Assembly (NCBI GenBank): GCA_913058405.1
Contig: CAJXRC010000011.1
Span: 1-49,118 of the forward strand
Direction of reading: 5' to 3'
From: an uncultured Colwellia sp.
GTDB taxonomy: Bacteria; Pseudomonadota; Gammaproteobacteria; Enterobacterales; Alteromonadaceae
DNA: 49,118 nucleotides
Below the pieces are notes generated by a model. It saw nothing but the letters and a program-made list of their open reading frames with translations. It was not told where the DNA came from and did not search any database. Shown in pieces: positions 2,582-49,118 of this stretch (its first letter is position 1; each line of letters begins with the position of its first letter). Made by a program: the position numbers and the translations under genes.

Positions 2582-2790
2582 ATGCGGTGCAGCAAGAAAT
2601 TATTGACCAATTTGATTTTGCTAGGTACACTCGCTTTAAATACGGATGCTGCGCTGCAATATAAAAATAAAAATTGGAACCTTAATTAACGCTAAATAAT
2701 GAAATAGGAACCTTAATTAACTATAACGTAAACTGTTCAACCGGTAATATTAGTGTATTTGATTCTGTAAAACACTTTAATAGCAAGTTG
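2582..2790 (+). pseudogene. Possible remnant of a small exported protein
   Basis: A 35-codon frame at 2582-2689 reads like a lipid-exported N-terminus: basic MRCSKK, a hydrophobic LLTNLILLGTLAL core, then NTDAA. It stops at a TAA inside the first copy of a 15-bp direct repeat. After the second copy (2707-2721) another frame is open and reads protein-like (GTLINYNVNCSTG...) until it runs into the dispersed repeat at about 2781. This could be a gene broken by a short duplication and then truncated by the repeat, or it could be chance. No family was recognised and the ribosome-binding site is poorly spaced. Confidence 0.3.
2676..2721. repeat. 15-bp direct repeat, two copies
   Basis: GGAACCTTAATTAAC occurs exactly at 2676-2690 and 2707-2721, 31 bp apart. 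It sits in the phaC-phaZ intergenic region at the apparent break point of the possible pseudogene. Confidence 0.8.
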
Positions 2791-3043
2791 ATTAAGTTCT
2801 TTCCCACTCAGCGAGAATTAAAAGCTTTAGAGGCAATGCATTGATTGTTGAGAATGGTTATTCCCTTATCAAAATCAATAAAGCTGCATATAAACCTTTT
2901 AAAATCGCCCTTGGGAGCTCATTGATAAACTGATAACATCACAAGATTAATGAAATATAGAATAACTATATTTAACAAGTTTTGTTTGTTCTAAGCTCAA
3001 CAATGTAGCTCTGCGTAGGGAAGAAATTTAATCAAATTGGTAT
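2781..3043 (+). repeat. Dispersed intergenic repeat, type A, copy 1
   Basis: The left end (AAGTTGATTAAGTTCTTTCC) matches the reverse complement of the right end of the 40729-41050 copy and continues through ACTCAGCGAGAATTAAAAG. The internal core GCATTGATTG...GAATGGTTATTC is shared with the other copies. The right end, TTAATCAAATTGGTAT, is the inverted terminus. It ends 54 bp before the phaZ start codon and so forms the upstream part of its leader. Confidence 0.7.
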
Positions 3044-3097
3044 AAGATCAATACGAAAGTTAAGACCCGTTGAAAGCTTATTTGAAGGATAAAACAC

Positions 3098-4315
3098 ATG
3101 ATGTATCAAACCTACGACCTCTATAGTCGCTCCGCCGAACTGATGAATGGTTTTATCAAAGTGAATCAACAATTGCTCACTCATCCATTTAACCCATTTT
3201 CAAATACCCTAGTGGGAAAAAGTATTAATGCAGCACTCGACAGTGCATACCACCATACAAAAACTTACGATAAACAGCCTTTTGATATCAAAACATCAGT
3301 AATTGACGGTGAAACAATTAACATCACCGAACAAATTCTTGTCGAAAAACCTTTTTGTAATTTAATTCACTTCAAACAAGATACCGAGGTCAAACAACCT
3401 AAACTGTTTTTGGTTGCTCCGCTTTCGGGTCATCATGCAACCCTACTCAAAGCAACAATAGAACGTTTAATTGTAGATCATGATGTGTATATTACGGATT
3501 GGTTAGATGCGAAAAATGTTCCTTTATCTGAAGGATCCTTTGGTTTTGATGATTACGTAACTTACGTGATCGATTTTATGAAAGAAATTGGCGAAGATAC
3601 GCATGTCTTAGCCGTTTGCCAACCTGCAGTTCAAGCCCTAATAGCAACAGCTGTATTGGCTAAAGAAAAAGATCCAGCAACACCTAAATCTCTTACAATA
3701 ATAGCTGGCCCAATTGATACTAGTATCAATCCTAACGAACTCAATAAATATGCCAGTAGTAAAGATTTAAAATGGTTTGAAAATAACGTTATTATGACAG
3801 TGCCTAATCGCTTCCCCGGTGCAGGGCGAAAAGTTTACCCTGGCTTTATCCAGTTAAGCTCTTTTATGGCGATGAATATAGAAAACCATATAACTAAACA
3901 TACTGATTATTTTGGCCATGTTTTTCACGGAAAAGAAGATAAACAAGAAAGCCATCGTGATTTTTATGACGAATATCTAGCGGTATTAGATCTTAACAGT
4001 GAGTTTTATCTAGAAACCCTCGATCGCGTTTTTATTAATCATGATTTAGCTAATGGCAAAATGACTTATCATGGTGAGCTTGTAGACTTATCAGTAATCA
4101 CTGATACAGCATTACATACCATTGAAGGAAAAAACGATGATATTTGTTCGTTAGGACAAACCCAAGCAGCACAAACTTTATGTTCTGGCATCCCAGAGCA
4201 AAAGAAGTTGGATCAAGTTTTTGATGGTGTTGGTCACTTTGGAACGTTTAGTGGCTCTGCTTTTCGCGAAAGAATAGCACCGAGTATTGCAGAGTTTATT
4301 CAAAAGCATAAATAA
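3098..4315 (+). CDS. phaZ: Intracellular PHB depolymerase PhaZ
   Basis: The 405-residue protein matches the Ralstonia-type intracellular depolymerase family in length and layout. The N-terminal stretch MMYQTYDLYS is typical. The nucleophile is Cys174 in VCQPAVQA, which replaces the usual lipase Ser. Candidate acid residues are Asp347/Asp348 in EGKNDDICS, and His380 is in GVGHFGTFSG. There is no signal peptide, consistent with action on native cytoplasmic granules, releasing 3-hydroxybutyrate units. A GGAT-type site about 10 bases upstream supports the ATG at 3098; the ATG at 3101 is equally possible. The gene is transcribed away from phaC and shares a bidirectional terminator with the convergent hydroxybutyrate dehydrogenase gene. 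Confidence 0.92.
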   Translation: MMYQTYDLYSRSAELMNGFIKVNQQLLTHPFNPFSNTLVGKSINAALDSAYHHTKTYDKQPFDIKTSVIDGETINITEQILVEKPFCNLIHFKQDTEVKQPKLFLVAPLSGHHATLLKATIERLIVDHDVYITDWLDAKNVPLSEGSFGFDDYVTYVIDFMKEIGEDTHVLAVCQPAVQALIATAVLAKEKDPATPKSLTIIAGPIDTSINPNELNKYASSKDLKWFENNVIMTVPNRFPGAGRKVYPGFIQLSSFMAMNIENHITKHTDYFGHVFHGKEDKQESHRDFYDEYLAVLDLNSEFYLETLDRVFINHDLANGKMTYHGELVDLSVITDTALHTIEGKNDDICSLGQTQAAQTLCSGIPEQKKLDQVFDGVGHFGTFSGSAFRERIAPSIAEFIQKHK

Positions 4316-4350
4316 CTCTTCTCTGAGAGAAGTAAGTTATTAAGTAAATA

Positions 4351-4382
4351 AAAAGTAGGCTTGTTATCAAACCTACTTTTTT
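4351..4382. terminator. Bidirectional terminator between phaZ and the hydroxybutyrate dehydrogenase gene
   Basis: AAAAGTAGG at 4351 pairs with CCTACTTTT at 4372-4380, with a small inner TTG/CAA pairing. It is flanked by A and T runs, so it can work for both convergent genes. Confidence 0.85.
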
Positions 4383-4405
4383 ATTTTATCATTAATAAAA
4401 ATCAA

Positions 4406-5182
4406 CTATCTTGCTACCCAACCACCGTCTAATACCATGGTTTGTCCTGTCATATTTTTAGCGACATCACTTGCTAAATAACTTACTGAACCACATATTT
4501 CTTCTATATCGATAAATGCTTTTTTCGGCATTGGCGCCAGCATAATGTTATTAACAACTTCTTCTTCACTAATACCATGCTCTTTCGCCGTATCTGCAAT
4601 TTGCTTCTCAACCAACGGAGTTTTTACATAGGCAGGACAAATAGTATTGATAGTAATATCTTGATCACCTGTTTCTAACGCAATCACTTTAGAGAAACCT
4701 ATGATGCCATGCTTAGCGGCAACATAAGCACTTTTGTATGGAGAGGCGACTAAGCCATGCAAAGAGCCAATATTAATAATACGACCAAAATTATTTGCTC
4801 GCATCAAAGGTAATACCGCTTTAGTCATCATTGCAGGACCAACGAGTAGTACATTGGTAATCAATTGCCATTTATCTGCGGGAAACTCTTCTAATTTAGA
4901 GACATATTGAATACCTGCATTGTTGACTAATACATCAATGCGGTTATTAAACTCATCCGCACGAGCAATAACATTATCAATATCAGCTTGCATAGTAACA
5001 TCAAGTTTAAACGCTAATGCATCTCCTCCTGACTGGTTAATACTCTGTGCTACATCTTCAGCCACAGATAAGTTAATATCACTAATAAGGATTTTATATC
5101 CTTGTTTAGCTAAATCTTTTGCTATTCCTAAGCCAATACCACTGACAGAACCCGTTACTAAAGCCGTTTTTTTAAGTGTCAT
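4406..5182 (-). CDS. bdhA: 3-hydroxybutyrate dehydrogenase (SDR family)
   Basis: This enzyme oxidises the (R)-3-hydroxybutyrate released from PHA to acetoacetate with NAD. The 258-residue SDR protein has the nucleotide motif TGSVSGIG (residues 10-17), NNAG (87-90) and the catalytic set Ser140, Tyr153, Lys157. The stretch HGLVASPYKSAYVAAKHG and the later TPLVEKQI are characteristic of 3-hydroxybutyrate dehydrogenase and separate it from FabG-like reductases. GGA lies about 9 bases before the ATG. Convergent with phaZ, it completes the mobilisation branch of the PHA cycle. Confidence 0.9.
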   Translation of the reverse strand: MTLKKTALVTGSVSGIGLGIAKDLAKQGYKILISDINLSVAEDVAQSINQSGGDALAFKLDVTMQADIDNVIARADEFNNRIDVLVNNAGIQYVSKLEEFPADKWQLITNVLLVGPAMMTKAVLPLMRANNFGRIINIGSLHGLVASPYKSAYVAAKHGIIGFSKVIALETGDQDITINTICPAYVKTPLVEKQIADTAKEHGISEEEVVNNIMLAPMPKKAFIDIEEICGSVSYLASDVAKNMTGQTMVLDGGWVAR

Positions 5183-5607
5183 ATTTTATTCCATTAGTTT
5201 GTTTATATTCTAAACAGAATATAACGATAGTTTGTTAATGTTAACTAAACACTGCAATTATTTACTTGTTAAGTTCACGTTTAAGCGTAAATAGCCTAAA
5301 AGAGCCAAAACAAAATAAAGAATAACTTATAGCAAAAAAGTTATATACGAACACATCGCTCACTTATCAACCAGTTGTCGCATACAAAAACAACTCAGCC
5401 TATAATGAATCGTAACTCCCCCATTCAAGCCAAATAAAAGTCGATTTAATTTAAAAATATAAAATTTAATTTTTTACGTACTACGACTAAAGTTAATTAG
5501 TTGAATGATTCAGCTTGATATATGATAAAAAATGAGCAAATAGCTCAAAAAATATAAAATTTAGAAACCTCTATGTACAAATATAAAATATAACAAGGAG
5601 CACAGTT
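5183..5607. other. Intergenic region upstream of phaB, AT-rich
   Basis: No gene was found in these 425 bp between two divergent genes. The 10-mer AATATAAAAT occurs exactly three times, at 5456, 5551 and 5580, in the last 150 bp before phaB. A small GAGC/GCTC hairpin lies near 5533-5545. The 10-mers could be promoter -10 elements or just low complexity. The ribosome-binding site AAGGAG lies at about 5594-5599. Confidence 0.5.
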
Positions 5608-6330
5608 ATGGGACGCATTGCATTAGTAACAGGCGGAACTCGTGGAATAGGCGAATCAATTAGCATTATGCTAAAAGATAGTGGTTATACTGTCATCGCT
5701 AACTATGCTGGTAATGATCAGGCAGCTCAAGAGTTTACAGAGCGAACAGGTATTCGAACTTCTAAATTTGATGTCAGTGATTTTGAAAGTGTAACTAACA
5801 GTATTAACGATATAGAGTCTGAAATTGGGCCAATCGATATTCTTGTAAATAATGCAGGGATCACAAGAGATGGCACTATGCACAGGATGGACTTTGAGAA
5901 GTGGAATGCCGTTATTCAGACCAATTTATCCTCTTGTTTCAATACTTCTCGTGCAGTTATTGAAGGTATGAGAGAACGATCATTTGGACGTATTGTTAAT
6001 ATAGGTTCAGTTAATGGTCAAGCAGGTCAGTATGGCCAAGTAAACTATGCAGCAGCTAAATCTGGTATTCACGGTTTTACTAAAGCATTAGCACAAGAAG
6101 GAGCAGCAAAAGGTATTACGGTCAATGCGATTGCACCAGGTTACGTTGAAACCGATATGGTTCGAGCAGTACCTGAAGACGTTTTAGCCAAAATTGTCAA
6201 AACAATACCGGTAGGACGCTTAGGCCAACCAGAAGATATAGCGCGTTCAGTACTATTTTTAGTCGCTGATGAAGCAGGTTTTGTTACTGGCTCAACCTTA
6301 TCTATCAATGGCGGTCAGCACATGTACTAA
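5608..6330 (+). CDS. phaB: Acetoacetyl-CoA reductase PhaB
   Basis: PhaB reduces acetoacetyl-CoA to (R)-3-hydroxybutyryl-CoA, the monomer for PhaC, normally with NADPH. The 240-residue SDR protein has TGGTRGIG near the N-terminus, NNAG at 81-84, and Ser134, Tyr147 and Lys151 as the catalytic residues. The C-terminal ending GGQHMY and the NYAAAKSG segment are hallmarks of PhaB rather than FabG. AAGGAG lies 8 bases upstream of the ATG. It is divergent from the dehydrogenase gene. No thiolase (phaA) follows; a terminator comes immediately after. Confidence 0.93.
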   Translation: MGRIALVTGGTRGIGESISIMLKDSGYTVIANYAGNDQAAQEFTERTGIRTSKFDVSDFESVTNSINDIESEIGPIDILVNNAGITRDGTMHRMDFEKWNAVIQTNLSSCFNTSRAVIEGMRERSFGRIVNIGSVNGQAGQYGQVNYAAAKSGIHGFTKALAQEGAAKGITVNAIAPGYVETDMVRAVPEDVLAKIVKTIPVGRLGQPEDIARSVLFLVADEAGFVTGSTLSINGGQHMY

Positions 6331-6365
6331 GGATAAAAGTATTATTTTAAAACTTTTATCACGCT

Positions 6366-6395
6366 AACGTAGATGAGCAATCATCTACGTTTTTA
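6366..6395 (+). terminator. Terminator of phaB
   Basis: AACGTAGATG pairs perfectly with CATCTACGTT (6382-6391) around a 6-base loop, followed by T-rich sequence. Confidence 0.85.
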
Positions 6396-6502
6396 TTTAA
6401 CACCTTAGCCCTCTCGCCATTTAACAAATAATAATACCAATACTTTCAATAACTCAAGAGATAAAATCTTTCTCGTTTCTGATTACCCTTTTGAAACAAA
6501 AC

Positions 6503-7222
6503 TCAGCTCTTCTGCTCACAGTTAGGCTTAGCTAGATAAAGAAAATAGGCTGATGAGATACCAGCAGAAGCAAATATCATACACATCACCATGATTTGAT
6601 ATCTTGCGGCAATAAAAGGCGAAACCCCTGAGAGGATTTGTCCTGTCATCATACCAGGCAAAGAAACTATTCCCACCGCTAAAAGCGCATTTACATTGGG
6701 GATCATCGATGCTTGAAACGCAACATTTCGAGCTTGTTTATAGTTCACCTTATTCGTCAGTTCAGAATAAAAACGCTCTCCAGACAAACTAATACTGTTC
6801 ATGCTACTAGCGAAAACCATACCTGCAAGGGGAATAAGTGTTTGGGCGTGATACCAAGGTGAGAGTTGTAATACACCTTGGGTGATAATTAATAAAGTTA
6901 GTACACCGCTGAGTGATATAGCTAATACCGCGCGCTGAAAAAGTTGTCTCTTAGGCGCTTCAATATTATTTAAGGCTATCCAGCTAGAAAATAGCACCAT
7001 AATGATTAATAGGACTAAGACTAACCAAGCACTATTCGACTCAAATATATAACCGAGAAAAAAGCCCACTAATAATAATTGCACCAGCATACGAGCAAGA
7101 GCATGAAGTGTTCTTTTTTGTGGTAACGACCAGCTAAATTGAATAAATATTACCGCTAGTACCGGAATAAAAGCCAGGGCTAACTGTGGTAATTCAATTA
7201 TGTTTAATGTCTTTTCTATCAT
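6503..7222 (-). CDS. fetB: FetB/UPF0014-family ABC-type membrane permease, orphan
   Basis: The 239-residue polytopic protein has about six or seven hydrophobic segments. The conserved UPF0014 block includes PNVNALLAVGIVSLPGMMTG followed by GVSPFIAARYQ. In E. coli FetB pairs with the ATPase FetA and is linked to iron export and peroxide resistance (family knowledge). No FetA-like ATPase is adjacent here: the gene lies 16 bp downstream of recJ and is probably cotranscribed with it. Transport function is inferred from the family; the partner ATPase must be encoded elsewhere or be absent. Confidence 0.82.
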   Translation of the reverse strand: MIEKTLNIIELPQLALAFIPVLAVIFIQFSWSLPQKRTLHALARMLVQLLLVGFFLGYIFESNSAWLVLVLLIIMVLFSSWIALNNIEAPKRQLFQRAVLAISLSGVLTLLIITQGVLQLSPWYHAQTLIPLAGMVFASSMNSISLSGERFYSELTNKVNYKQARNVAFQASMIPNVNALLAVGIVSLPGMMTGQILSGVSPFIAARYQIMVMCMIFASAGISSAYFLYLAKPNCEQKS

Positions 7223-7238
7223 TTATATTACTTTCAGT

Positions 7239-9002
7239 TTAGGGGAGCTCAATCGTTGTGATATTTTCAACCATTAATTGCACGGTGCGTTTACCACGAA
7301 ATTCATTAACATCTAATCTATAAGCCAAATGCACCTGTTTTGCTTGAGTATTTGGCCAAGCCTTAACATCCACATTAAAGGCAATACCGTCAAATACTTC
7401 ACCCTGTTTTTCTACCACAAGTTTAAGGTGTTTTTCACCTACAATCCGTTGCTGAACTAAAGTGAAATTATCATCAAATAATGGTTCAGGGAAGTTTTGT
7501 CCCCAAGGCCCCGCATCTCTAAGTTTCTCGGCAAAGTCTAAGTTAAGATGCTCAAGAGGAAGCTCACCATCAGATAAAATAATACTTTGTAAATCTTCTT
7601 CTTTTAACCACTTACCTGCTAATTCATTGAATAGCTGCTGAAAACGTTCAAAATCACTTTGTTTTATTGATAAACCTGCCGCCATTGCATGACCACCAAA
7701 TTTACTAATAATATCAGGATGCTGACTATCAATATGTTCTAATAAATCTCTAATGTGCAAACCTGGAATAGAGCGTGCTGAACCTTTAATCTCTCTATTC
7801 ACATCACCAATAGAATCATCGTCTTTACCCGTAGCAAAAACAATACAAGGTCGATGAAATTTTTCTTTTAATCGGCCAGCGACAATGCCAATAACACCTT
7901 GATGCCAATCTTGCTGATAAAGTGCGATAGCATTAGGCAAATTATTTTCATCAAACTTGAGTGAAGTAAGTACTTGCTCAGCTTCAATTTGCATACCCTG
8001 CTCTATCTCTCGGCGAGTTTTATTAAGATCATCAAGCTCCGCAGCCATCACTCGAGCACTCGATAAATCATTAGCAAGTAAACAGTTAATGCCATAAGAC
8101 ATGTCATCAAGACGTCCTGCGGCATTAATTCTTGGACCTAAAGCAAAACCAAAATCACTGGCAACGAGCCTTTGCTGATTTTTATTCGCTATTTCAATAA
8201 GCGCTTGAATACCCGGTCGAGTTTTTCCGGCACGAATACGTTTCAAACCTTGTTCTACTAAAATTCGGTTATTCGCATCAAGTGACACCACATCGGCCAC
8301 AGTTCCTAAAGCAACTAAGTCTAATAGTTGAGCGATATTAGGCTCAGCAATACCCTGCTCAGTAAAATAGTTTTGCTCACGGCAATACTTTCTTAAAGCC
8401 AGCATTAAATAAAAAGCCACCCCCACGCCGGCAAGAGCTTTGCTCGGGAAGTTACAACCATGTTGATTAGGGTTAACAATAGCATCAGCATTGGGTAATG
8501 AGTGTCCCGGTAAGTGATGATCCGTAACAATAACCTGCATACCTAGATCTTTGGCGCGCTTAACACCAGCAATACAGCTGATACCATTATCCACTGTTAT
8601 CAGCATTTGCGCATTTTGTTGCGCGGCAATATCAACAATTTCAGGGGTTAAACCATAACCATATTCAAAACGGTTTGGCACAATAAAGTCATGATTACTA
8701 CTGTTAAACAGGTTCAATGCAGTCATCATCAAAGCAGTGCTCGTAGCACCGTCGGCATCAAAATCACCAACAATAATAATACGTAATTTATTTACTAACG
8801 CGCCATGCAATAACTGACACGCTTTATCCATGCCCATAAGCGCTGTTTCATCGACCATACCTTGTAGATGAGCAACATTAAGTTCAAGCTCTTGCGCCGA
8901 TTTCATACCACGACTAGCATAAATTTGTTTTATGATTTCGGCTAGGTTATTAGGTAAGTGGCTGGTAGCTACTTTCTCTCGGCGAACAATTGTTTTACTC
9001 AT
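7239..9002 (-). CDS. recJ: Single-stranded-DNA-specific exonuclease RecJ
   Basis: RecJ is the 5'-3' single-strand exonuclease of RecF-pathway recombination and mismatch repair. The 587-residue length is standard. DHH-family motifs are present in order: GDFDADG (79-85), DNG (138-140), DHH (161-163), the ALGTVADVV segment, GPRINAAGRLDD and the DHHA1 motif GHAMAAG. dsbC lies upstream on the same strand, as in many gammaproteobacteria, but a 263-bp repeat and the dsbC terminator separate them, so recJ must have its own promoter. fetB follows after 16 bp. Confidence 0.96.
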   Translation of the reverse strand: MSKTIVRREKVATSHLPNNLAEIIKQIYASRGMKSAQELELNVAHLQGMVDETALMGMDKACQLLHGALVNKLRIIIVGDFDADGATSTALMMTALNLFNSSNHDFIVPNRFEYGYGLTPEIVDIAAQQNAQMLITVDNGISCIAGVKRAKDLGMQVIVTDHHLPGHSLPNADAIVNPNQHGCNFPSKALAGVGVAFYLMLALRKYCREQNYFTEQGIAEPNIAQLLDLVALGTVADVVSLDANNRILVEQGLKRIRAGKTRPGIQALIEIANKNQQRLVASDFGFALGPRINAAGRLDDMSYGINCLLANDLSSARVMAAELDDLNKTRREIEQGMQIEAEQVLTSLKFDENNLPNAIALYQQDWHQGVIGIVAGRLKEKFHRPCIVFATGKDDDSIGDVNREIKGSARSIPGLHIRDLLEHIDSQHPDIISKFGGHAMAAGLSIKQSDFERFQQLFNELAGKWLKEEDLQSIILSDGELPLEHLNLDFAEKLRDAGPWGQNFPEPLFDDNFTLVQQRIVGEKHLKLVVEKQGEVFDGIAFNVDVKAWPNTQAKQVHLAYRLDVNEFRGKRTVQLMVENITTIELP

Positions 9003-9035
9003 ACTATTCGGTCTCAGTTTTGCTGGTGATAGTTA

Positions 9036-9298
9036 TATACCCGTTACCAATCAAGATGCATGTTTCAGAGTGCTTGAGTAATTTCAATTCAAGACGCTGT
9101 GATGAAATAATGGTTATTCCCTTATAAATCACAGCAACGATCAAGTGATGTTGCTCAAGCGCTTCTTCGATGGGTTTTAAATGACTTTATACGGCGTCAA
9201 ATAATCAAAGCACAGAATAACTATACTTAAATTATCTTCCTTGCCTAAAGTGATTTAATTCCCACTGAAACCCTGCACTTTGAATGGTAACGGGTATA
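9036..9298. repeat. Dispersed intergenic repeat, type B, with 25-bp inverted termini
   Basis: The left terminus, 9036-9060, begins TATACCCGTTACCAATCAAG. The right terminus, 9274-9298, is its inverted copy at 22 of 25 positions. The internal right half carries the family core in reverse (AATAACTATA...TTGCCTAAAG). The left end lies 33 bp from the recJ start codon, so the recJ promoter is likely within or beside it. The right end nearly repeats the element at 49066. Confidence 0.85.
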
Positions 9299-9332
9299 GC
9301 TGTGATAACGCTTTATAGCTTATTTTTACCAT

Positions 9333-9366
9333 AAAAAAAGCACTTGGTGAAAATCAGCAAGTACTT
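9333..9366 (-). terminator. Terminator of dsbC
   Basis: On the minus strand AGTACTTG pairs with CAAGTGCT (one G-U pair) and is followed by seven T. It lies about 35 bp past the dsbC stop. Confidence 0.8.
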
Positions 9367-9401
9367 TTTACGGTTTATCTATATCGACAATGAATTGTAG
9401 A

Positions 9402-10196
9402 TTAAGTATTTTTCAGCAATTCTTCCAATTGCGCTGGTGGTTGGTAACCAGGAATCATCATGCCATTTGATAAGATAATCGCTGGGGTGCCACTAACACC
9501 AATTTGACGACCAAAATTAAACTGAGCCTCAATTGGAGCTTCACAAATTCGATACGCAACACCAGTACCCGATTTAGCTTTAGTTAACGCTGTGGCATTA
9601 TCTTCACTACACCACACTGAACGTAAATCTTTAAAACCTTGGGTTAAGTTCCCGCTTTGATCTTTAATACCTGCTCGTGGATAAGCTAAATAACGAAAGG
9701 TGATGCCGCGAGCATTATAGTCTGCCATTTGCTCGTGCATTTTACGGCAATAACCACAGGTAATATCAGTAAAAACTGACACCACGTATTTTTCATTCTC
9801 AGCTTTATAAACAATCATGTTATCTTCAAAGTTTTTCACCCCTTCTAGACGCACTTTAGCTAAGCTCTCTTCGCCTATGTCTTTCACGGTAGAGCCTAAA
9901 TTGTAGACTTTTCCTTGAATAAAAAACTCACCATCATAACTCGCATAAAACAAACCTTGGTTGGTAACAAGTAAAGCAATGCCTGGTAATGCTGTTTCTT
10001 CAACTTTAACAACAGTTAACCCTATAGAGCTGTTAATTTTTTCTTTTAAAAAATCTGCATCAAGCACCGTTTTATCACTTACGGGCTTGGCCAATATAGT
10101 AGGTACATTGGTTTCTTCTGCTGCATTCACGTCTTGCAACAATAGAGGTAAAGTGAGTGTGGCAAGTACAGCGCTAATAATAAATGTTTTAAACAT
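9402..10196 (-). CDS. dsbC: Periplasmic disulfide isomerase DsbC
   Basis: DsbC is a thiol:disulfide interchange protein that reshuffles wrong disulfides in the periplasm. From the ATG at 10196 (AGGA 6 bases upstream) the protein has 264 residues; a longer TTG-initiated frame at 10211 is less likely. The signal peptide covers about residues 1-25, ending DVNA. The active-site CGYC is at 147-150, the structural cysteines are Cys196 and Cys218, and the cis-proline loop GTPAI is near 237-241. The dimerisation domain occupies the first half. In E. coli dsbC lies between xerD and recJ; here recJ follows, but fldB rather than xerD lies upstream. Confidence 0.95.
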   Translation of the reverse strand: MFKTFIISAVLATLTLPLLLQDVNAAEETNVPTILAKPVSDKTVLDADFLKEKINSSIGLTVVKVEETALPGIALLVTNQGLFYASYDGEFFIQGKVYNLGSTVKDIGEESLAKVRLEGVKNFEDNMIVYKAENEKYVVSVFTDITCGYCRKMHEQMADYNARGITFRYLAYPRAGIKDQSGNLTQGFKDLRSVWCSEDNATALTKAKSGTGVAYRICEAPIEAQFNFGRQIGVSGTPAIILSNGMMIPGYQPPAQLEELLKNT

Positions 10197-10272
10197 AATG
10201 ATTCCTAACAACTTCCTAACAGCTTTCGAATAAATGAAAGCAATAAATCGATAATAATGAGTCTAATGGTCA

Positions 10273-10318
10273 TATACCTAAGCCACTTGAAGATGCATCT
10301 TCAGGTAGCTTGGGTCTA
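10273..10318. repeat. Mini palindromic copy of the type B repeat (termini only)
   Basis: TATACCTAAGCCACTTGAAG runs straight into its own reverse complement, centred on GATGCATC at 10292-10299. It looks like two type B termini joined with no interior. It lies between the divergent dsbC and fldB genes and could form a strong hairpin. Confidence 0.75.
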
Positions 10319-10485
10319 TTCATATGAAGAGACCTAGTTATACGCAAGGAAATTACAGCCATGAGAGATTATTTGCAACTTAAAATAACCAGGAAATTGA
10401 ATTAACTTGTAAACAAAGATAATTGTTTTTGCTAAAATCGCACCTAATAGTAGTTCGTATTGAAATAAAAATTGGAAATAGCATA

Positions 10486-12415: not shown

Positions 12416-12507
12416 TTATACCCAAGCTACATGAAGATACCTAGGTAAATAAGTGCATACAAGGGTTACATTATTGTGACACTTTTATTGCACTTAAGCC
12501 TAGGTAT
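12416..12507. repeat. Degenerate type B repeat with inverted arms
   Basis: A type B terminus, TATACCCAAGCTACATGAAG, begins at about 12417. Inside, ATACCTAGG...AAGTGCA (12437-12457) is inverted at 12489-12507. It lies just after the srmB stop codon. Confidence 0.5.
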
Positions 12508-12568
12508 GTAATATTTCTGTCATAAAGCAATGCTGTAATAGCGACGTATTCACTTTATGGATGAAGTT

Positions 12569-12626
12569 ATACCAAATCTATTGATTAACAGTGCTTCGTA
12601 AACCTACTAATCAAATAGTCTGGTAT
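12569..12626. repeat. Mini palindromic copy of the type A repeat
   Basis: ATACCAAATCTATTGATTA at 12569-12587 is inverted at 12608-12626 as TAATCAAATAGTCTGGTAT, about 15 of 19 positions matching. Both ends carry the type A terminus ATACCA. It lies in the leader region of the porin gene. Confidence 0.55.
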
Positions 12627-17203: not shown

Positions 17204-17225
17204 TATACCTAAGCCACTTAAAGCT
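17204..17225. repeat. Single type B repeat terminus
   Basis: TATACCTAAGCCACTTAAAG matches the left terminus of type B copies such as the one at 10273. No clear partner terminus was found, so it is a partial copy. Confidence 0.5.
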
Positions 17226-17288
17226 GTGCCTTCACGTATTTTTCCTGTGTGTCTAATGCCAGTTAAACTGCATTGACTTAGAGTTTTG

Positions 17289-23830: not shown

Positions 23831-24011
23831 AATGCCAATTCAATTAAGTTTTTACTTACTCGGCGAGAATCAAAAGCCTTATAAACAAGGCATAGATCAA
23901 AGAGAATGCTTTTTCCTTAATCAAAAACAATAACGCCGTATAGAAGGCTTTTGCACTAGCCTTAAGCAGCTTGCTTGGAAAAAAATAACAGCATAAATTT
24001 GTTTGATTTAA
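23831..24011. repeat. Degenerate type A repeat
   Basis: GCCAATTCAATTAAG leads into CTCGGCGAGAATCAAAAGCC and ACAAGGCATAGATCAAAGAG, recognisable versions of the type A left half. The right terminus is not clear. The following type B element starts directly at its end. A minus-strand ORF across this stretch is not a gene. Confidence 0.55.
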
Positions 24012-24282
24012 TATATACCCAAACCACTTGAAGATGCGTGTTTCAGGACGCTTGAGCGACTCATGATCAAGGCGTCTCTTTTTATTAAGGGTTATTTCCT
24101 TAAAAAAGGAGGCAACGAAGTACATGATTTGCTCAAACGTCCCCAGAGGGCTGGTTTATAAACGCTTTATGCTACGTTATTGATTTCGACAATAGAATAA
24201 CTATTATCTTCAATCAATGTCTTGCCTAAAAGCGTTTCTAATTCCAGCTGAATCCTTAATTTTGAGGTAACATGGGTATATA
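24012..24282. repeat. Dispersed intergenic repeat, type B
   Basis: Inverted ends TATATACCCA and TGGGTATATA are seen. The left part has ACCACTTGAAGATGCG and TTCAGGACG. The right half holds the core in reverse (AATAACTATTATCTTC, ATCAATGTCTTGCCTA, TTCCAGCTGAA). It ends 24 bp before the start of the acetyltransferase gene, whose leader it forms. Confidence 0.8.
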
Positions 24283-28949: not shown

Positions 28950-29064
28950 AGTTTTTAGCTCTCTATATCAATTTGATTAACTCTGTTAGCAACTCACAGC
29001 TTATTCAACTCGGTATTGTTATTAGTTCGGTAAACAAGGAATGAATTACGATTATTATCTATTT

Positions 29065-40728: not shown

Positions 40729-41050
40729 ATACCAATTCCATTAAATTTATTCCCAACTCAGAGTTATGTCAGAGAAGCCAGCACAAATAAAATTTGTGCT
40801 GGTATAGCATTCTATATTTAACAAATTTGTGAAGTTATTGCTTTTCTGACAAGCTCCCAAGGGCGAGTACCTAATAAAAGGTAAAGGTTTACATACATCG
40901 TTATTGATTTTGAGAAGGACGCTACATGGTTGTAGCTTCTTAGAGAATGCAGGAGCATATTCTCCTGAATAACTATTCTCTTCAATCAATGCCTTGCCTC
41001 TAAGCCTTTTAATTCTCGCTGAGTGAGAAATAACTTAATGGACTTGGTAT
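40729..41050. repeat. Dispersed intergenic repeat, type A, best-preserved copy
   Basis: Ends ATACCAATTCCATTAA and TTAATGGACTTGGTAT are inverted at 15 of 16 positions. Interior landmarks are GGAGCATATTCTCCTGAATA, the core AATAACTATTCTCTTC...ATCAATGCCTTGCC and TTAATTCTCGCTGAGTGAG. Any ORF inside is not a gene. This 322-bp copy best shows the type A layout. Confidence 0.9.
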
Positions 41051-41109: not shown

Positions 41110-41312
41110 TATACCCAAGCTACCTGTAGATGCCAGTTTCAGCTGGAATTAGAAAAGCCTTTAGGCAAGGCATTGATTGAAGAGAATAGTTATTTTATTA
41201 TCTAAATTAATAACACAGCCTAAAGTGTTTCTAAACCAGCCCTTCGGGGACGTCTGAGCGATTCATGATCAAACGTCCTGAAATAGGCATTATCGGGTGG
41301 CTTGGGTTTATA
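41110..41312. repeat. Dispersed intergenic repeat, type B
   Basis: Ends TATACCCAAGCTACC and GGTGGCTTGGGTTTATA are inverted. The interior has TTCAGCTGGAATTAG, GGCAAGGCATTGATTGAAGA and GAATAGTTATT, then ACCAGCCCTTCGGGG. It ends 26 bp before the rluF start codon. Only 59 bp separate it from the type A copy. Confidence 0.88.
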
Positions 41313-42268: not shown

Positions 42269-42303
42269 ATCAGCCCAAATAAACGCTTCTTGCTGATTAT
42301 TAC

Positions 42304-42343
42304 AAAAAAACTTACATAGTGTGACTATGTAAGTTTTTTTTTT
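42304..42343. terminator. Bidirectional terminator between rluF and prpE
   Basis: ACTTACATAG pairs with CTATGTAAGT around TGTGA. It is flanked by seven A and a run of ten T, so it can end transcripts in both directions. Confidence 0.93.
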
Positions 42344-42354
42344 GCACTGTAATT

Positions 42355-42420
42355 GGTATAAGACCATCCCGCATAAAGAAACTTTCACTACATGAATACT
42401 TGTTTACACGGGACGGTATG
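42355..42420. repeat. Small inverted repeat downstream of prpE, possible relative of the dispersed repeats
   Basis: ACCATCCCG at 42363-42371 is inverted as CGGGACGGT near 42409-42417. The outer flanks read GGTATA and GTATGAC. Its TATACC-like ends recall the type A/B family, but the match is weak. Confidence 0.35.
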
Positions 42421-42428
42421 ACTCTATA

Positions 42429-44324
42429 TTACCCCTTGTTGATTCCTACTAGAGCACCTGAAAGCTCGGTGATTACTTGGCTATCTTCTATAGTTGAAGG
42501 TATTTCAATCTCTTGACCATCAATCATTTGTCTAAGTGTTTTTCGTAAAATCTTGCCTGAACGCGTTTTTGGCAATCTATCAATGATAAGTAATTTCTTC
42601 AATGATGCTATTGCGCCAATATCATTACGAATACTTTGTTTTAATTCGCTAATGAGATCTTCATCGCTGGTGGTAATACCATTTTTTATCACGACTAGCC
42701 CAAGAGGAACTTGCCCTTTCAATGCATCATTGATACCGACAACAGCACATTCTGCTACGGCGGGGTGACCCGATAAAACTTCTTCCATTTCACCTGTTGA
42801 TAAACGGTGTCCTGCAACATTGATAACATCATCAATGCGACCCATGATAAAGAGGTAACCATCTTCATCAATATAGCCACCGTCTCCTGACGTGTAATAG
42901 CCAGGATGATTAGACAAATACCCTGATACTAAGCGCTCTGGATCGCGATAAATAGTGGCTAAACAGCCCGGTGGAAGCGGCAGCTTTATAGCGACACTAC
43001 CTTGTTTTCCAGCAGGAACTTGCTGACCATCGCTATCAAGAATTTGTACATCAAAGCCCGCAATTGGAAACCCAGCAGAGCCAGCTTTGGTGGCTACTAA
43101 ATTACCTGAACCATCATCTAAAGGTGTACTCGCAATTGCCCAACCAGTTTCTGTTTGCCACCAATGATCGATTACTGGTAATTGTGTTTTTTCTTTAAGC
43201 CAATGATAGGTGGCTGGGTCTAAGCGTTCGCCAGCTAAGAATAGGCGTTTTAATGATGACAAGTCGTAGTCTTTAAGTAAGTCACCTTCAGGATCTTCTT
43301 TTCCGATAGCACGAAATGCAGTGGGAGCTGAAAATAAAGCATTTACTTTGTACTCAGCACATACACGCCAAAAAGCGCCTGCGTCAGGTGTTCTGATAGG
43401 TTTTCCTTCATAAACAATAGTGGTGCAGCCGGCCATTAACGTGCCGTAAATAATGTAAGAGTGACCAACAACCCAGCCAACGTCAGAAGCAGCCCAGAAG
43501 GTGTCTCCTTTTTTCATACCATAGATATTTTTCATGCTGTACTGCATAGCAACCGCATGACCACCATTATCTCTTACCACACCTTTTGGTTTGCCTGTGG
43601 TACCAGAAGTATACAAAATGTAGAGTGGGTCGGTGCTTTTAACTGGGACTGGAGGAATTTCAATCGCAACGTCCATCTGCTCTTGCCAGTCAAGGTCTCT
43701 GCTTGATACCAACTGTGCTCTAGCTTCTTCTCTTTGGAAGATGATGCAATTGGTTGGTTTATGCGTAGCAATCTCGATAGCTTCGTCTATTAAAGGCTTA
43801 TAAGGAATAACTTTTGCTATTTCAACACCGCAGCTAGCGCCAACAATGACTTTTGGTTCTGCATCATTGATACGTACTGCAAGCTCATTGGCAGCAAAAC
43901 CACCAAAAACGACAGAGTGAATTGCACCTAGTCGAGCACATGCCAGCATTGCGATAGCGGCTTGTGGGATCATTGGCATGTAAATTAATACACGATCGCC
44001 TTTGGTAACGTGTTGTGATCTGAGTACGTCAGCAAACTTTGCCACTAAACTGGTCAGTTCAAGATAAGTAAATTTTTGTTTTTGACCCGTAACAGGTGAG
44101 TCGTATATTAATGCAGTATCAGCACCTCGGCCTTGTTCAACATGATAATCCAACGCAAGATAACAAGAATTTAGCTCACCATCGGCAAACCATTCATGCC
44201 AAGAGTCAGTGTTTTTTGACAATATTGTTTGCGGTTTTTTATACCAAGCAACAAGCTCAGACTGCTCTTGCCAGTAACTCTCAGGTGAATTGATTGCTAA
44301 TTCTTGTTGTTCAATGTGTTTCAT
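42429..44324 (-). CDS. prpE: Propionyl-CoA synthetase (PrpE-like)
   Basis: The enzyme activates propionate (or a similar short acid) with ATP and CoA. ATG 44324, with AAGG upstream, gives 631 residues; the longer frame from 44357 is less likely. The AMP-forming motif is YTSGTTGKPKG followed by VVRDNGGHAVAM, a PrpE feature. GFPIAGFDV, SGYLSNHPGYYTSGDGGY, GRIDDVINVAGHRLST and the catalytic Lys in RSGKILRKT complete the family. Acetyl-CoA synthetase would carry different sequence at these places, so PrpE is preferred, with acetate still possible as substrate. Neither neighbour is a methylcitrate-cycle gene. Confidence 0.9.
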   Translation of the reverse strand: MKHIEQQELAINSPESYWQEQSELVAWYKKPQTILSKNTDSWHEWFADGELNSCYLALDYHVEQGRGADTALIYDSPVTGQKQKFTYLELTSLVAKFADVLRSQHVTKGDRVLIYMPMIPQAAIAMLACARLGAIHSVVFGGFAANELAVRINDAEPKVIVGASCGVEIAKVIPYKPLIDEAIEIATHKPTNCIIFQREEARAQLVSSRDLDWQEQMDVAIEIPPVPVKSTDPLYILYTSGTTGKPKGVVRDNGGHAVAMQYSMKNIYGMKKGDTFWAASDVGWVVGHSYIIYGTLMAGCTTIVYEGKPIRTPDAGAFWRVCAEYKVNALFSAPTAFRAIGKEDPEGDLLKDYDLSSLKRLFLAGERLDPATYHWLKEKTQLPVIDHWWQTETGWAIASTPLDDGSGNLVATKAGSAGFPIAGFDVQILDSDGQQVPAGKQGSVAIKLPLPPGCLATIYRDPERLVSGYLSNHPGYYTSGDGGYIDEDGYLFIMGRIDDVINVAGHRLSTGEMEEVLSGHPAVAECAVVGINDALKGQVPLGLVVIKNGITTSDEDLISELKQSIRNDIGAIASLKKLLIIDRLPKTRSGKILRKTLRQMIDGQEIEIPSTIEDSQVITELSGALVGINKG

Positions 44325-44831
44325 TATAATGGCCTTGTAGATAACTCGGATATACATACATTAAAACTGTCGACAAAATTAACCTATTAGACCTTAGGCT
44401 AATACCTAAGTAGATACTATGTTTTATGCTCAATTGCGTTTAATGTTATTAATTTGCTTTTTATCGATTATCGGTAAAAAAAAGCCTTAATACATTTGTT
44501 TTTGTTTTTAGGTTAAATGTTTAAAATACTTTTAAAATAAAATAAACCTAGTAACTTGTTATCTCGTTTTATATGCGTGTGTCGACAATTTGTTGTTGTG
44601 ATGCATCTAAAATCGAAGAAAACATAGCGTTAATACTTCGACTGCATTATGCTATATCTTGATTTTTTTCATTATTTTAGTAGTAATATTAGCTACAGTT
44701 TTTGCATTTGCTAGTAGTAATATGCGGTTATCAGGACAAAACTAGATCGTTTTTGTCTTATGAGTTTGTTATTTATTAGGTCGGATATCATGTTGCAAGT
44801 TATCCGTTTTGATTTTGAACAGGGTGTCAAT
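44325..44831. other. Intergenic region between prpE and the HTH gene
   Basis: About 500 AT-rich bp between divergent genes. A CTTAGG/CCTAAG stem (44393-44398 with 44405-44410) lies near prpE, possibly an operator. Two TGTCGACAA-like words occur at about 44369 and 44580. No gene, RNA or repeat was recognised. Confidence 0.4.
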
Positions 44832-45059
44832 ATGGCTATAATTATCACGTTAGATATCATGCTAGCAAAACGTAAAATGAAATTAAATACTTTGGCAGAA
44901 CGTGTGGGTATTACCGCGCAGAATTTATCAATCTTAAAAAATGATAAAGCGCGTGCCATTCGTTTTGATACGCTAAATAGATTATGTAAAGTATTGGATT
45001 GTCAGCCGGGAGATATTTTAACCTATGAGGCAAGTGAGGTTGGTGAGATTGAAGAGTAG
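44832..45059 (+). CDS. Small Cro/C1-type HTH regulator
   Basis: The 75-residue protein is a single Xre-like helix-turn-helix (HTH_26 type): IMLAKRKMKLNTLAERVGI, TAQNLSILKNDKARAIRFD, LCKVLDCQPGDIL. ATG 44832 is chosen because the domain begins there, with AGGGTG upstream; the longer frame from 44760 adds an unlikely tail at the front. Homologues of this size (YozG-like) are stand-alone regulators, often beside a membrane protein, but none is adjacent here. Its targets are unknown. A terminator stem overlaps its stop codon. Confidence 0.85.
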   Translation: MAIIITLDIMLAKRKMKLNTLAERVGITAQNLSILKNDKARAIRFDTLNRLCKVLDCQPGDILTYEASEVGEIEE

Positions 45060-45076
45060 TACTACTACTCTTTTTA
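45053..45076 (+). terminator. Terminator of the HTH gene
   Basis: AGAGTAGT pairs with ACTACTCT around ACT and is followed by T residues. The stem includes the stop codon at 45057-45059. Confidence 0.75.
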
Positions 45077-45098
45077 TGTCGTTTTTAGCGTAAAGTAC

Positions 45099-45644
45099 TT
45101 ACTTATTTTTCACTGGCATTTGATAATGTACCGCATCAAAATCGCCAATTGGATCTTCATGTAAATAAGCTCTGATAAATTTCATACCCATTTTTTTCAT
45201 CACGCCTACCGAAGCTAAATTGTCAGCCACGGCAAGTGCCGAAACATGAGTGACATCAGTATTAGCAACTACCGCATCTTTTATCGCTATTGCCGCTTCT
45301 GTAGCATAACCTCTTCCCCAAGTAGCTTGGAAAAACCGCCAACCCAACTCTAAATCCTTAGTGTCGGGTGACTCGGTAAAAAATGACATAGGACGGATTA
45401 ATACCCAACCTAAATACTCATCAGTTACTTTGTTTGATACTTGCCAAATTCCCCAGCCTAATTCACTGTTTCGGTATTTTTTCATACGCGGAATAAATAC
45501 GCTGTTAACTTGTTCTATGCTGGTGGGAGTACCACCATTTAGAAACTTCATCACTGCTGGGTCTTGATCTATCTCCCATAATGCTTGGGCATCTTTAGAA
45601 TCCATTAATCTAAACTTTAGTCGTTCACTATTATTGATGTGCAT
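45099..45644 (-). CDS. RimJ/RimL-type GNAT N-acetyltransferase
   Basis: The 181-residue protein (from ATG 45644, AGGAA upstream) carries the ribosomal-protein-alanine acetyltransferase type GNAT fold: LKFRLMDSKDAQALWEIDQD, ELGWRFFQATWGRGYATEAA (acetyl-CoA loop WGRGYATEA), NLASVGVMKKMGMKFI. The substrate is unknown; many relatives modify small molecules or peptides. The longer frame from 45680 is not needed. It lies 92 bp downstream of uvrA on the same strand and may be read from it. Confidence 0.87.
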   Translation of the reverse strand: MHINNSERLKFRLMDSKDAQALWEIDQDPAVMKFLNGGTPTSIEQVNSVFIPRMKKYRNSELGWGIWQVSNKVTDEYLGWVLIRPMSFFTESPDTKDLELGWRFFQATWGRGYATEAAIAIKDAVVANTDVTHVSALAVADNLASVGVMKKMGMKFIRAYLHEDPIGDFDAVHYQMPVKNK

Positions 45645-45736
45645 AAAATTCCTATTAAAAGAAGGAGAGGAGTGAAGCATAACGCACGTTCTTATACGTT
45701 ATACTGCGTGCCGTATTTGTTGTTAACGTTAAGGCT

Positions 45737-48568
45737 TTATTTCGACGCTAACAAGGGTTTTAAAAATCGCGCTGTATGCGAAGTTTTATGTTTGGCAACT
45801 TGCTCAGGCGTGCCTGTTACTAAAATTTCACCACCACCCGCGCCGCCTTCAGGACCTAAATCGATTACCCAATCGGCCGTTTTAACTACATCTAAGTTAT
45901 GTTCAATCACTACGATGGTATTACCATGATCACGTAATCGATGAATAACATGGAGCAATTGTTTGATATCGTGAAAATGCAAACCTGTAGTTGGCTCATC
46001 TAAAATATACAAAGTTTTACCTGTATCACGTTTTGATAACTCTTTTGACAGTTTAACGCGTTGTGCTTCACCGCCCGAAAGGGTGATTGCTGACTGTCCG
46101 AGTTTGATATAGCCTAAACCGACATCGAGTAAAGTTTGCAACTTGCGGTTAACCGCCGGAATAGCTTTGAAAAAGTCAAAAGCATCTTCAATGGTCAAGT
46201 CCAATACTTGGTGAATATTTTTACCTTTGTATAATACTTCTAACGTTTCACGATTATAACGTTTGCTTTTACATACATCACAAGGCACATAAACGTCAGG
46301 TAAAAAATGCATCTCTACCTTGATCATGCCGTCACCTTGGCAGGCTTCACAACGTCCGCCTTTAACATTAAAGCTAAAGCGACCCGCTTTATAACCTCTT
46401 GAACGCGACTCCTGCGTGGCAGAGAATATATCGCGCACCGCAGTAAATATGCCGGTGTAAGTTGCAGGATTTGAACGCGGTGTTCTGCCTATTGGGCTTT
46501 GATCAATATCAATAACTTTATCTAGATGTTCTAAACCACGAATACTTTTGTAAGGCGCAGGCTCATCAATCGTCGCGCCATTAAGTTCAATATGCGCTAA
46601 TTTATATAAGGTATCGTTAATGAGTGTTGATTTACCAGAGCCGGAAACGCCAGTTATACAGGTCATTAAACCAGTAGGAATAACTAAGTCGACATTTTTT
46701 AAGTTATTACCGGTAGCACCCGTAAGTTTAACAACTTTTTTCTTATCAAAGGCATGACGTTTCTTAGGTATTTCAATGCTTTCAACGCCAGAAAGGTACT
46801 TACCTGTTAGAGACTCTTTACAGGCTAATATGTCATCTACTGTGCCTTGTGCGATAATTTCGCCGCCGTGTACACCAGCGCCTGGGCCAATATCCACCAC
46901 AAAATCTGCTGCACGAATGGCATCTTCATCATGCTCAACCACAATCACGGTATTCCCTAAGTCACGCAGGTGAACTAAGGTACTGAGTAAGCGTTCATTA
47001 TCACGTTGATGAAGACCAATAGAGGGTTCATCTAAAACATACATGACACCTACCAAACCTGCGCCAATTTGGCTTGCAAGTCTTATTCTTTGAGCTTCAC
47101 CACCGGACAGGGTATTTGCACCACGTGATAAATTGAGGTAATTAAGGCCAACGTTCACTAAAAATCCTAAACGTTCATTGACCTCTTTTAATATTTTCTC
47201 TGCAACTTGTGCTTTTTGACCTGTGAGGGTTAAGCCTTGGAAAAAGTCTAGGGCATCACTAATGGAAAATTCAGCCACGACAGTTAATGGTGTATCTTCG
47301 ATAAAGACATTACGAGCCTCTAAGCGTAATCGACTACCATTACAATCAGGGCAATGTTGCGAATTAAGGTATTTGCCTAGCTCTTCACGTACTGCGTTTG
47401 ATTCGGTTTCTTTATAACGACGTTGCATATTATTGATGATGCCTTCAAAGGGATGCTTACGCACCACAACATCACCGCGGTCGTTCATGTATTTAAATTC
47501 AATTTCTTGCTCATCACTACCATAAAGCACCACTTTTTGGGCTTTCGCAGATAACTTATTAAACGGTGTATCCACCTGAAATTTGTAATGATCGGCAAGC
47601 GCTTGTAGCATTTGAAAGTAATAAAAATTACGTTTATCCCAACCACGAACTGCACCGCCAGCAAGACTTAATTCCTTGTTAGCAATAACGCGAGTGCTAT
47701 CAAAGTATTGTTCAATACCTAAACCATCACAGGTTTGACAAGCACCAGCAGGATTATTAAAAGAGAATAAACGTGGCTCTAATTCTTGCATGCTGTAACC
47801 ACAATGTGGACAAGCAAAGTTAGCTGAGAAAAGTAACTCTTCACGATCAGGCTCATCCATAAAGGCAACTTTCGCGGTACCTGCTGTTAAAGTTAAGGTT
47901 GTTTCAAAAGACTCTGAAAGGCGTAATTGAATATCTTCACGCACTTTTATACGGTCAACGACAACTTCTATGGTGTGCTTTTTATGTAACTCTAACGGCG
48001 GTGGATCGGATAAATCACAAACCTCACCATCAATACGTGCACGAATAAAACCTTGGGCAGCTAAGTTATCGAGTAGCTTTATATGTTCCCCTTTACGGCC
48101 TTGTATAATAGGCGCAAGTAGCATCACTTTCGTGCCTTCTTCGAGCTCTAAAACTTTATCAACCATTTGCGAAACAGTTTGTGCTGCTAGCGCTTGACCG
48201 TGCTCAGGACAACGCGGCTCCCCAACTCTGGCATAAAGCAAACGCAAGTAATCATATATCTCAGTGATGGTACCTACGGTTGAACGTGGGTTATGAGAGG
48301 TTGATTTTTGCTCGATGGAGATAGCGGGTGATAAACCTTCAATATGATCAACATCAGGCTTTTCCATTAAGGATAAAAATTGACGAGCATAAGCGGAAAG
48401 TGATTCAACGTAGCGACGTTGTCCCTCAGCGTAGAGCGTATCAAAGGCAAGAGAAGATTTTCCTGAACCTGAAAGGCCGGTAATTACTACGAGTTTATCT
48501 CGAGGTATTGTTAAACTAATGTCTTTGAGGTTATGCGTGCGAGCACCTCTGACTTCAATACTTTTCAT
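45737..48568 (-). CDS. uvrA: Excinuclease ABC subunit A (UvrA)
   Basis: UvrA is the damage-recognition ATPase of nucleotide excision repair. The 943-residue length is standard. Two ABC ATPase modules are visible: Walker [11 protein letters not shown] and [10 protein letters not shown], signatures [16 protein letters not shown] and [15 protein letters not shown], and Walker [14 protein letters not shown] and [13 protein letters not shown]. Zinc modules are CPHC...CQTC in the first half and CEAC...CDVC in the second. A LexA box lies about 97 bp upstream, so the gene is probably in the SOS regulon as in E. coli. No ssb gene is adjacent, unlike in E. coli. Confidence 0.98.
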
Positions 48569-48664
48569 GCGTTTTTTAACTCTAATGGCGATAAAATAGA
48601 ACCGACGATTATGTCATATAAATTACAGTATAAAAACTAATCTAGGGCAGAATATGGAAATAAA

Positions 48665-48680
48665 CTGTTTATTTTTACAG
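48665..48680. promoter_or_regulatory. LexA (SOS) box upstream of uvrA
   Basis: CTGTTTATTTTTACAG is a perfect CTGT-N8-ACAG match. On the minus strand it lies just upstream of a TATACT -10-like element near 48629-48634, suited to repress uvrA. Confidence 0.85.
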
Positions 48681-48755
48681 TGTCTTACTTGCGCTTCAAA
48701 AAAGAAAGAAATGGTGAGCAGATGAAGCGAAATTTAACATGGCGACAAAAGTATC

Positions 48756-49067
48756 TATACCCGTTCTACTGGAATATGAATGATTCAGCTGGAATTATGA
48801 ATGCCTTTAGATAAGGCATTGATTGAAGAGAATAGTTATTCTATTGTCGAAATCAATAACGAAGCATAAAGCGTTTCTAAATAGCTGCTTGGGGAAGGCT
48901 TAGCAAATCAGACTCTGCGTTACCTTTCTTTGTAAGGGCGCTACATGGATGGTGTTTTTAAATAATGCAGGAGCATATTCTCCTGAACAACACTTAATAA
49001 AAAATGCGCCTTGATCATGAAGCGCTCAGACTTCCTGAAACGAGCACTTTCAAGTAGAGCGGGTATA
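48756..49067. repeat. Dispersed intergenic repeat, type B, 312 bp
   Basis: Ends TATACCCGTTCTACT and AGTAGAGCGGGTATA are inverted at 14 of 15 positions. The interior has TCAGCTGGAATTATGAATGC, AAGGCATTGATTGAAGAGAA, TAGTTATTCTATTGTCGAAA, and GGAGCATATTCTCCTGAA shared with the 40729 copy. Confidence 0.9.
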
Positions 49068-49118
49068 TACCCGTTACCAATCAAAGTGCAGAATTTCAGT
49101 GGGAATTAAAACCACTTT
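49066..49118. repeat. Partial type B repeat cut by the window end
   Basis: It starts TATACCCGTTACCAATCAAA, directly abutting the previous element at a shared TATA. These 53 bases closely match the inverted right end of the 9036-9298 copy. The contig stops inside it, as expected for an assembly break at a repeat. Confidence 0.85.

Follow-up and report, generated by a model that had tools for sequence, protein, structure and literature searches.

The 49,118-nt stretch of DNA analysed here (the window; contig C11 of an incomplete Colwellia genome of 4.98 Mb in 422 contigs) carries a dispersed family of short intergenic repeats which, judged from their sequences, are miniature inverted-repeat transposable elements (MITEs) that belong to the IS630 family and fall into two mobility classes, type A and type B. 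Both classes share one body of ~263 bp, in which two hairpin arms stand inside an outer stem formed by the terminal inverted repeats (TIRs), and each arm appears to be conserved as a single strand read inwards from its own end of the element. We place the probability of this reading as a whole at roughly 70 %. Small repeats of the ERIC type are common between genes, yet little is known of what moves them or what they do; here one and the same body is found with two transposase systems that differ in their target duplications, and the outer stem provides an internal comparison for the type of selection acting on the arms. If true, the reading would explain why repeats of this sort are tolerated close to genes whichever way round they lie.

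Genomes are numbered G and fetched loci L, G000 being the window's own genome. RecJ, a neighbour of the repeats in the window, was used as a query and returned 80 loci, taken together with as much as 10 kb of flanking sequence; many of these loci are from Colwellia. A census of the fetched loci gave 102 distinct TIR-paired elements of 41–340 bp.

Target duplications and IS630-type partners

The initial annotation had described the repeats as MITE-like, a description borne out by their TIRs, the lack of a transposase gene, target duplications, empty sites in relatives and the existence of partner elements. In seven relatives, none of which was reported as split, the two flanks of the window copy at 2781, once joined, align straight through the junction, and the joined flanks of the copy at 9038 are uninterrupted in 15 relatives; Colwellia demingiae (L075) carries a copy at this same place, and L084 has another element nearby. 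The joined flanks of many other copies are likewise uninterrupted in relatives. The junction alignment did not give a clean position for the exact gap of the window copies; junctions that were clean, with a single gap, came from copies in L073, L108, L109 and L084, and there type B elements (TACCC...GGGTA) add TA and type A elements (TACCAA...TTGGTA) add TAA. Across the census, TA/TA flanks were found for 45/66 type B elements, and an exact 3-bp repeat for 16/32 type A elements (10 TAA, 6 TTA) vs 8.0 after shuffling, with none of 5000 shuffles as high. Element length is near-constant, with 61 of the 102 elements measuring 259–266 bp. The division into types A and B, proposed earlier on the basis of the ends, stands for the ends and is accompanied by a difference in duplication length; the TA duplication anticipated for the family as a whole is present in type B, while type A duplicates TWA. 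Copies occur throughout the genome and the genus and relatives have empty sites, so the repeats are neither absent elsewhere nor fixed at orthologous positions, and two groups of IS630-type elements with the same termini were found.

The partner of type B (group B) is best represented in G072, one of the genomes that match the type-B consensus at the ends only. Four 1097-bp elements, 99.9–100 % alike, have TACCC ends, are flanked by TA/TA in 4/4 cases and encode an intact 355-aa open reading frame (ORF) with DDE_3 and winged-helix domains. The DDE_3 domain (PF13358) was recognized in both partner groups (group B, L298, E value 1.4e-36; group A, L278, E value 1.5e-26). In the window's own genome, the type-B partner (contig C196) also measures 1097 bp and is flanked by TA/TA, and it carries one in-frame stop codon. 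The ends of the G072 and C196 elements were chosen on the inverted repeat alone. Ten fetched group-B loci have TACC-type ends 1.09–1.13 kb apart; these ends were scored partly on TACCC starts and TA flanks, and the TA flanks of these ten are therefore no independent test. The group-B transposase query matched 99/394 genomes, the weakest only distantly. Group A was approached from a decayed 984-bp IS630-type element in G001 and was matched in 52/394 genomes. Its elements are mostly 1.09–1.13 kb long with TACCAA or TACCAT ends, and the one copy read has two overlapping ORFs. Instead of the 2-bp TA duplication seen in group B, group A has a 3-bp TNA: an exact TTA, TAA or TCA duplication was found in 23/32 copies with distinct flanks (13.7 after shuffling). 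Four genomes (G324, G270, G176 and G148; L257–L293) have 7 to 11 group-A transposase matches each, and many of the copies are nearly identical, which suggests recent activity.

When the ends of distinct MITEs were compared with those of nine group-B and 36 group-A elements by BLAST, 53 matches were returned, none of them between classes. The interiors gave few non-terminal matches, of 15–18 bases, and no convincing similarity of body between MITE and IS. We propose that IS630-type elements with TACCC ends would act in trans on type B elements, which would insert at TA and duplicate it, and that type A elements would be moved by the second IS630-type group (TACCAA/TACCAT ends), inserting at TWA with duplication of three bases. 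The partners agree with the IS630 family (DDE_3; CCC-type of Photorhabdus) in their Pfam assignment, their length of ~1.1 kb and the TA duplication of group B, TA being the usual IS630 duplication; group A departs from it in duplicating three bases, mostly TWA. The pair of duplications is reminiscent of two MITE groups of plants, Stowaway (Tc1/mariner), which duplicates TA, and Tourist (PIF/Harbinger), which duplicates TWA. Those superfamilies are mutually unrelated, whereas here both partners are of IS630 type and the body is common to the two types.

Other candidate movers were rejected. In a search of 1.76 Mb of fetched loci for an ORF between paired ends, the three long pairs that were examined (L083, L089 and L111) turned out to enclose ordinary core genes, encoding a DEAD-box helicase, a protein of 260 aa and RecJ, between minis or other ends of this same repeat family. 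PF01609 transposases were located at 23 loci in eight genomes of the genus, none with convincing TACC ends. In the window's own genome, the remains of an IS630-type transposase, matched by a piece of the type-A group, adjoin type A and B1 copies (contig C10, 4080–4796; L200).

A shared two-armed body

The body consists of the outer stem and two hairpin arms, alpha and beta, which together form a three-way junction. The initial annotation had noted a common core in types A and B; the similarity in fact extends over the whole body, with a mean interior identity of 0.57 vs 0.27 for shuffled sequences, and the same arm order and conserved motifs are common to both types. Alignment A1 comprises 47/65 distinct elements of 255–272 bp; those omitted were for the most part additional copies from the window's own genome, L075, L114, L164 and, from one family, four elements of ambiguous orientation. 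Under the A1 fold, 91.7 % of cells pair, 66/71 pairs have changed on both sides, and 841 cells covary, as opposed to 273 when shuffled and at most 188 when slid. Well-conserved unpaired positions are present inside the arms. Pairing between the loops at the two arm tips looked possible by eye.

We give next to no credence to types A and B being unrelated MITEs whose bodies are alike by chance or convergence. Their ends, duplications and IS partners do differ, but an alignment over the entire body, with identical arm order and shared motifs, had already disfavoured this explanation. It is also extremely improbable that the repeats represent a structured RNA gene or cis-regulator of fixed sense that has spread by duplication. 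The strong covariation and near-constant length would be expected of such a gene, whereas empty sites with TA/TWA duplications, the high copy number, the matching IS ends and the opposite senses of the two arms would not. Rfam returned no matches in the window at gathering thresholds; for seven element loci searched at E values up to 0.5, it returned two tRNAs and one weak match outside the element, and none inside the elements.

A tree built from the body only has type-A ends at three places and requires three changes (bootstrap range 3–3), with a single change in 0/200 trees. An approximately unbiased (AU) test against a single origin of type-A ends gave p 0.028 for all 15 and 0.0008 without L190. 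As read from these sequences, there is at least one switch of ends between A and B whatever the tree, and more than one switch is likely but not secure. Both classes would carry one ancient body, with two hairpin arms inside the TIR stem, and this body would have exchanged its ends once at the least and, probably, repeatedly.

The repeats resemble the ERIC/IRU/RU-1 elements (MITEEc1, MITEYpe1 and MITEPlu5) in being intergenic, non-coding, present in high copy number and strongly folded, with a TA target and TACCC-like ends, although the TACYC-like ends at TA of ERIC/IRU are found in type B only. They differ in their size of ~263 bp as opposed to the ~127-bp ERIC-core unit, in the three-way junction, in an interior that is not detectably homologous and in possessing a TWA class. 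We therefore consider it very unlikely that they are ordinary ERIC/IRU elements. The target is the same, the ERIC end TACTCGTCATACTTCAAGTTGCATGT resembles the B1 end and related genomes contain 123-bp elements with ends of this kind; however, the elements described here are mostly of the 259–266 bp class and have two arms rather than one hairpin. The ERIC interior was also tried as one arm and rejected, its best score being 21 vs 27 for the best shuffled ERIC, whichever arm was used. In PMC6267812, the 123-bp MITEPlu5, to which ERIC is called a related element, is described as resembling the CCC subtype of IS630 transposons. The link between an ERIC-like MITE and an IS630 subtype is, to that extent, already known, and type B carries it over to an element that is larger, has two arms and is found in no fewer than nine family codes of the order. 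The RUP repeat of pneumococcus is another small repeat (107 bp) at TA, and its movement has been ascribed to an IS630 element (PMC2229807), but it has one partner, and no body shared across partners is reported there. Searches of the openly licensed literature yielded no report of this repeat family, nor of a body with this three-way junction, of one body common to two IS630 groups, of MITEs partnered by an IS630 group that duplicates TWA, or of arms constrained in opposite senses.

Opposite strand bias in the two arms

Selection on double-stranded DNA alone would be expected to leave G.T and A.C wobbles in equal numbers, and selection on one RNA sense to leave more G.T than A.C in all stems; neither was seen. 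Wobbles were counted as parsimony changes on a tree of 70 distinct rows (A1 plus 23 added rows, with ambiguous rows omitted), using an extended set of pairs filtered on the Watson–Crick fraction alone. Arm alpha gave G.T 61 vs A.C 26, arm beta G.T 33 vs A.C 95 and the outer stem G.T 52 vs A.C 54. The signs of the arms are the same in type A, in type B, in the window's own genome, in Colwelliaceae and in other families. An earlier count by cells had been ambiguous (153 vs 119), with alpha biased and beta and the outer stem not; the bias of beta is visible only when changes are counted on the tree. Single-column transitions showed no significant strand bias at paired or unpaired positions, so mutation does not explain the wobble bias, and a replication-strand effect would give both arms one sign, whereas their signs are opposite. 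Predicted RNA folding energies mostly pointed the same way, alpha being more stable in the + sense in 47/70 rows and beta in the − sense in 59/70. Selection thus seems to act on each arm as a folded single strand, taken in the direction that runs inwards from the arm's own end of the element, and the TIR stem appears to be conserved as double-stranded DNA; for the arms, we infer RNA rather than single-stranded DNA as the target of selection.

The main rival to RNA is single-stranded DNA that folds while the element is transposed or replicated, such as the 5′-ended strand at each terminus. The favoured sense of each arm is indeed the strand with its 5′ end at that terminus, an intermediate opened from both ends would fit as well as inward transcription, and G.T is less disruptive than A.C in DNA too. 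We nevertheless regard this explanation as unlikely, since changes in the outer stem, which should likewise form in an intermediate of this kind, are unbiased, and since near TIR-only minis exist, several with matching duplications, indicating that the arms are not strictly needed for mobility. A further alternative, which we judge quite improbable, is that the body is merely an inverted repeat kept palindromic by DNA-level processes such as template switching or gene conversion, neither strand being selected by itself. In its favour, the left and right TIRs covary within copies in B2 (182/209 cells vs 156 shuffled) and in A (179/209 vs 146), though not in B1 (141/171 vs 140), and changes in the outer stem are without strand bias; however, the significant, opposite wobble bias of the arms, together with their conserved unpaired positions, had already counted against it.

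Returning to the reading of two-class IS630 MITEs with inward-read arms, several results weigh against it. The alpha bias is non-significant in type A alone (15 vs 7, p 0.13) and, with stricter pairs, in other families (10 vs 5, p 0.30), and the folding effect of alpha is absent from type A (8 vs 12) and from other families (8 vs 8). In folding, the stem intended to serve as an unbiased control, the outer one, leans slightly towards the + sense (43 vs 27, Wilcoxon p 0.041). Moreover, the pair set began from a + sense fold, which favours G.T and so helps alpha, though not beta, and the rows are related copies, making the p-values optimistic. Intrinsic-terminator signals showed no clear excess (8 vs 6.3 expected). 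With regard to the exchange of ends, well-supported branches force only one change, and the AU test gave p 0.167 without L182. Terminal BLAST matches to a partner were obtained for only 16/65 type-B and 7/28 type-A MITEs. Transposition itself was never observed, and movement in trans is deduced from the shared ends and duplications. Finally, G010, with ~540 extrapolated copies or fragments, lacks any DDE_3 match; together with the stop codon in the own-genome partner, this suggests that the mover is gone, or unrecognized, in these hosts.

On the reading we favour, the TIR stem would be kept as double-stranded DNA for the transposase, and transcription entering from either side would fold the first arm that it meets. 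The element could then act as an orientation-independent RNA device, in termination or processing, which would make its insertion between genes tolerable. More tentatively, and on balance doubtfully, the folded, two-armed body may be a structural replicator indifferent to its transposase, having outlived its movers by switching between two IS630 systems and functioning in both orientations because each arm is selected as RNA in the direction of the transcription that enters from that arm's side.

Copies in the window, distribution and variants

Profile and end-pattern searches recovered all of the repeats listed in the initial annotation, comprising six copies, a cut copy and small copies. The six had been called full copies; all are present, but one is shortened and two are longer forms with an insert. 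Type A is represented by a 262-bp element on the + strand (2781–3042; profile match 2780–3043), which has a mutated left terminus (TAGC) and TAA/TAA flanks, and by a 320-bp long form on the − strand (40730–41049; profile match 40729–41050) with a 48-nt module at the tip of arm alpha and TTA/TGA flanks. The latter lies 5 bp upstream of the ATG of a 236-aa ORF. The one full B1 element (259 bp, − strand, 9038–9296; profile match 9037–9297) is flanked by TA/TA, as are two B2 elements, namely a 263-bp copy on the − strand (24016–24278; profile match 24015–24279) whose TIRs are of different sub-types (CAAACC/CATGTT) and a 308-bp long form on the + strand (48758–49065; profile match 48757–49066) with a 47-nt module at the tip of arm beta. 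The shortened copy is a 199-bp B2 element on the + strand (41112–41310; partial profile match 41111–41269) with a mutated right terminus, flanked by TA.

Profile searches also recovered a truncated and degenerate type-A copy on the + strand (23833–24010) and, from 49067, the copy cut by the contig end, a B1 element on the − strand (49068–49118) that has its TA in common with the preceding element. At 49066–49067, two type-B elements therefore abut with one common TA, as if the second had entered the duplicated TA of the first. A type-B end pattern built from window copies matched six times in the window vs 0.00 expected over 100 shuffles. These matches include two full-copy ends and the small copies at 10273, 12417 and 17204, which correspond to a 44-bp mini with only type-B termini (10275–10318), a solo type-B terminus on the + strand (12419–12442) and a degenerate solo type-B terminus, also on the + strand (17206–17229). 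The type-A end pattern matched five times vs 0.15 expected, including at 12568, a 56-bp mini with type-A termini (12570–12625), and at 28964, a degenerate type-A terminus on the + strand (28966–29001) that was absent from the earlier list.

In the window's own genome, three query copies matched at least 41, 44 and 56 pieces, query included, with 40 of 165–186 candidates scored. The window's contig terminates inside a partial copy at its right end, and partial copies lie at, or a few bases from, the starts of contigs C184, C92, C30, C357, C2, C23, C96 and C35 of the same genome; the repeats thus seem to break the assembly, which would make these own-genome copy numbers too low. All 39 genomes of the genus that were searched, the window's own included, returned matches, some of them weak. 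For G010, a single-contig genome of 5.37 Mb from the same genus, an evenly spaced 400-kb sample gave 40 matches, 19 of them full length and some representing two pieces of one element, and none when the sequence was reversed. Extrapolation gives ~540 matches (copies or fragments) and ~255 full copies. None of the 40 matches lay inside an ORF of at least 100 aa, though 82 % of the sample is coding. Order-wide, at least 50/247 genomes and at least 20/87 genera match the type-B consensus, some at the ends only, with three candidates scored per genome, and the family codes in which complete elements were read number nine, one of them that of the window. A single 34-base type-B end matched none of 50,697 phage records (E value up to 0.1) and 7 of 72,556 plasmid records (E value up to 0.05).

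The smallest variants are TIR-only minis of 41–60 bp with the same kind of termini, several with a matching duplication. Copies with TIRs of mixed sub-type, such as the window element at 24016–24278 and those in L039 and L067, suggest recombination between elements. Long forms carry a 47–48-nt module with two small hairpins, usually at an arm tip, following GGTTATTC or a sequence close to it; the arm concerned is alpha in type-A copies and alpha or beta in B2 copies. The module is AGGAGAATATGCTCCTGCATTCTCTAATAAGCTACATCCATGTAGCGT-like and is present, among other loci, in the two window long forms (40730–41049 and 48758–49065), at L079:18531–18579 and at L215:2477–2514. Of its 31 distinct matches, 29 lie in or within 60 bp of elements and two elsewhere, and the module may itself be an independent, smaller mobile hairpin. 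By eye, a second module appears to be nested in the first at L371:10139–10493 and L112:7901–8240.

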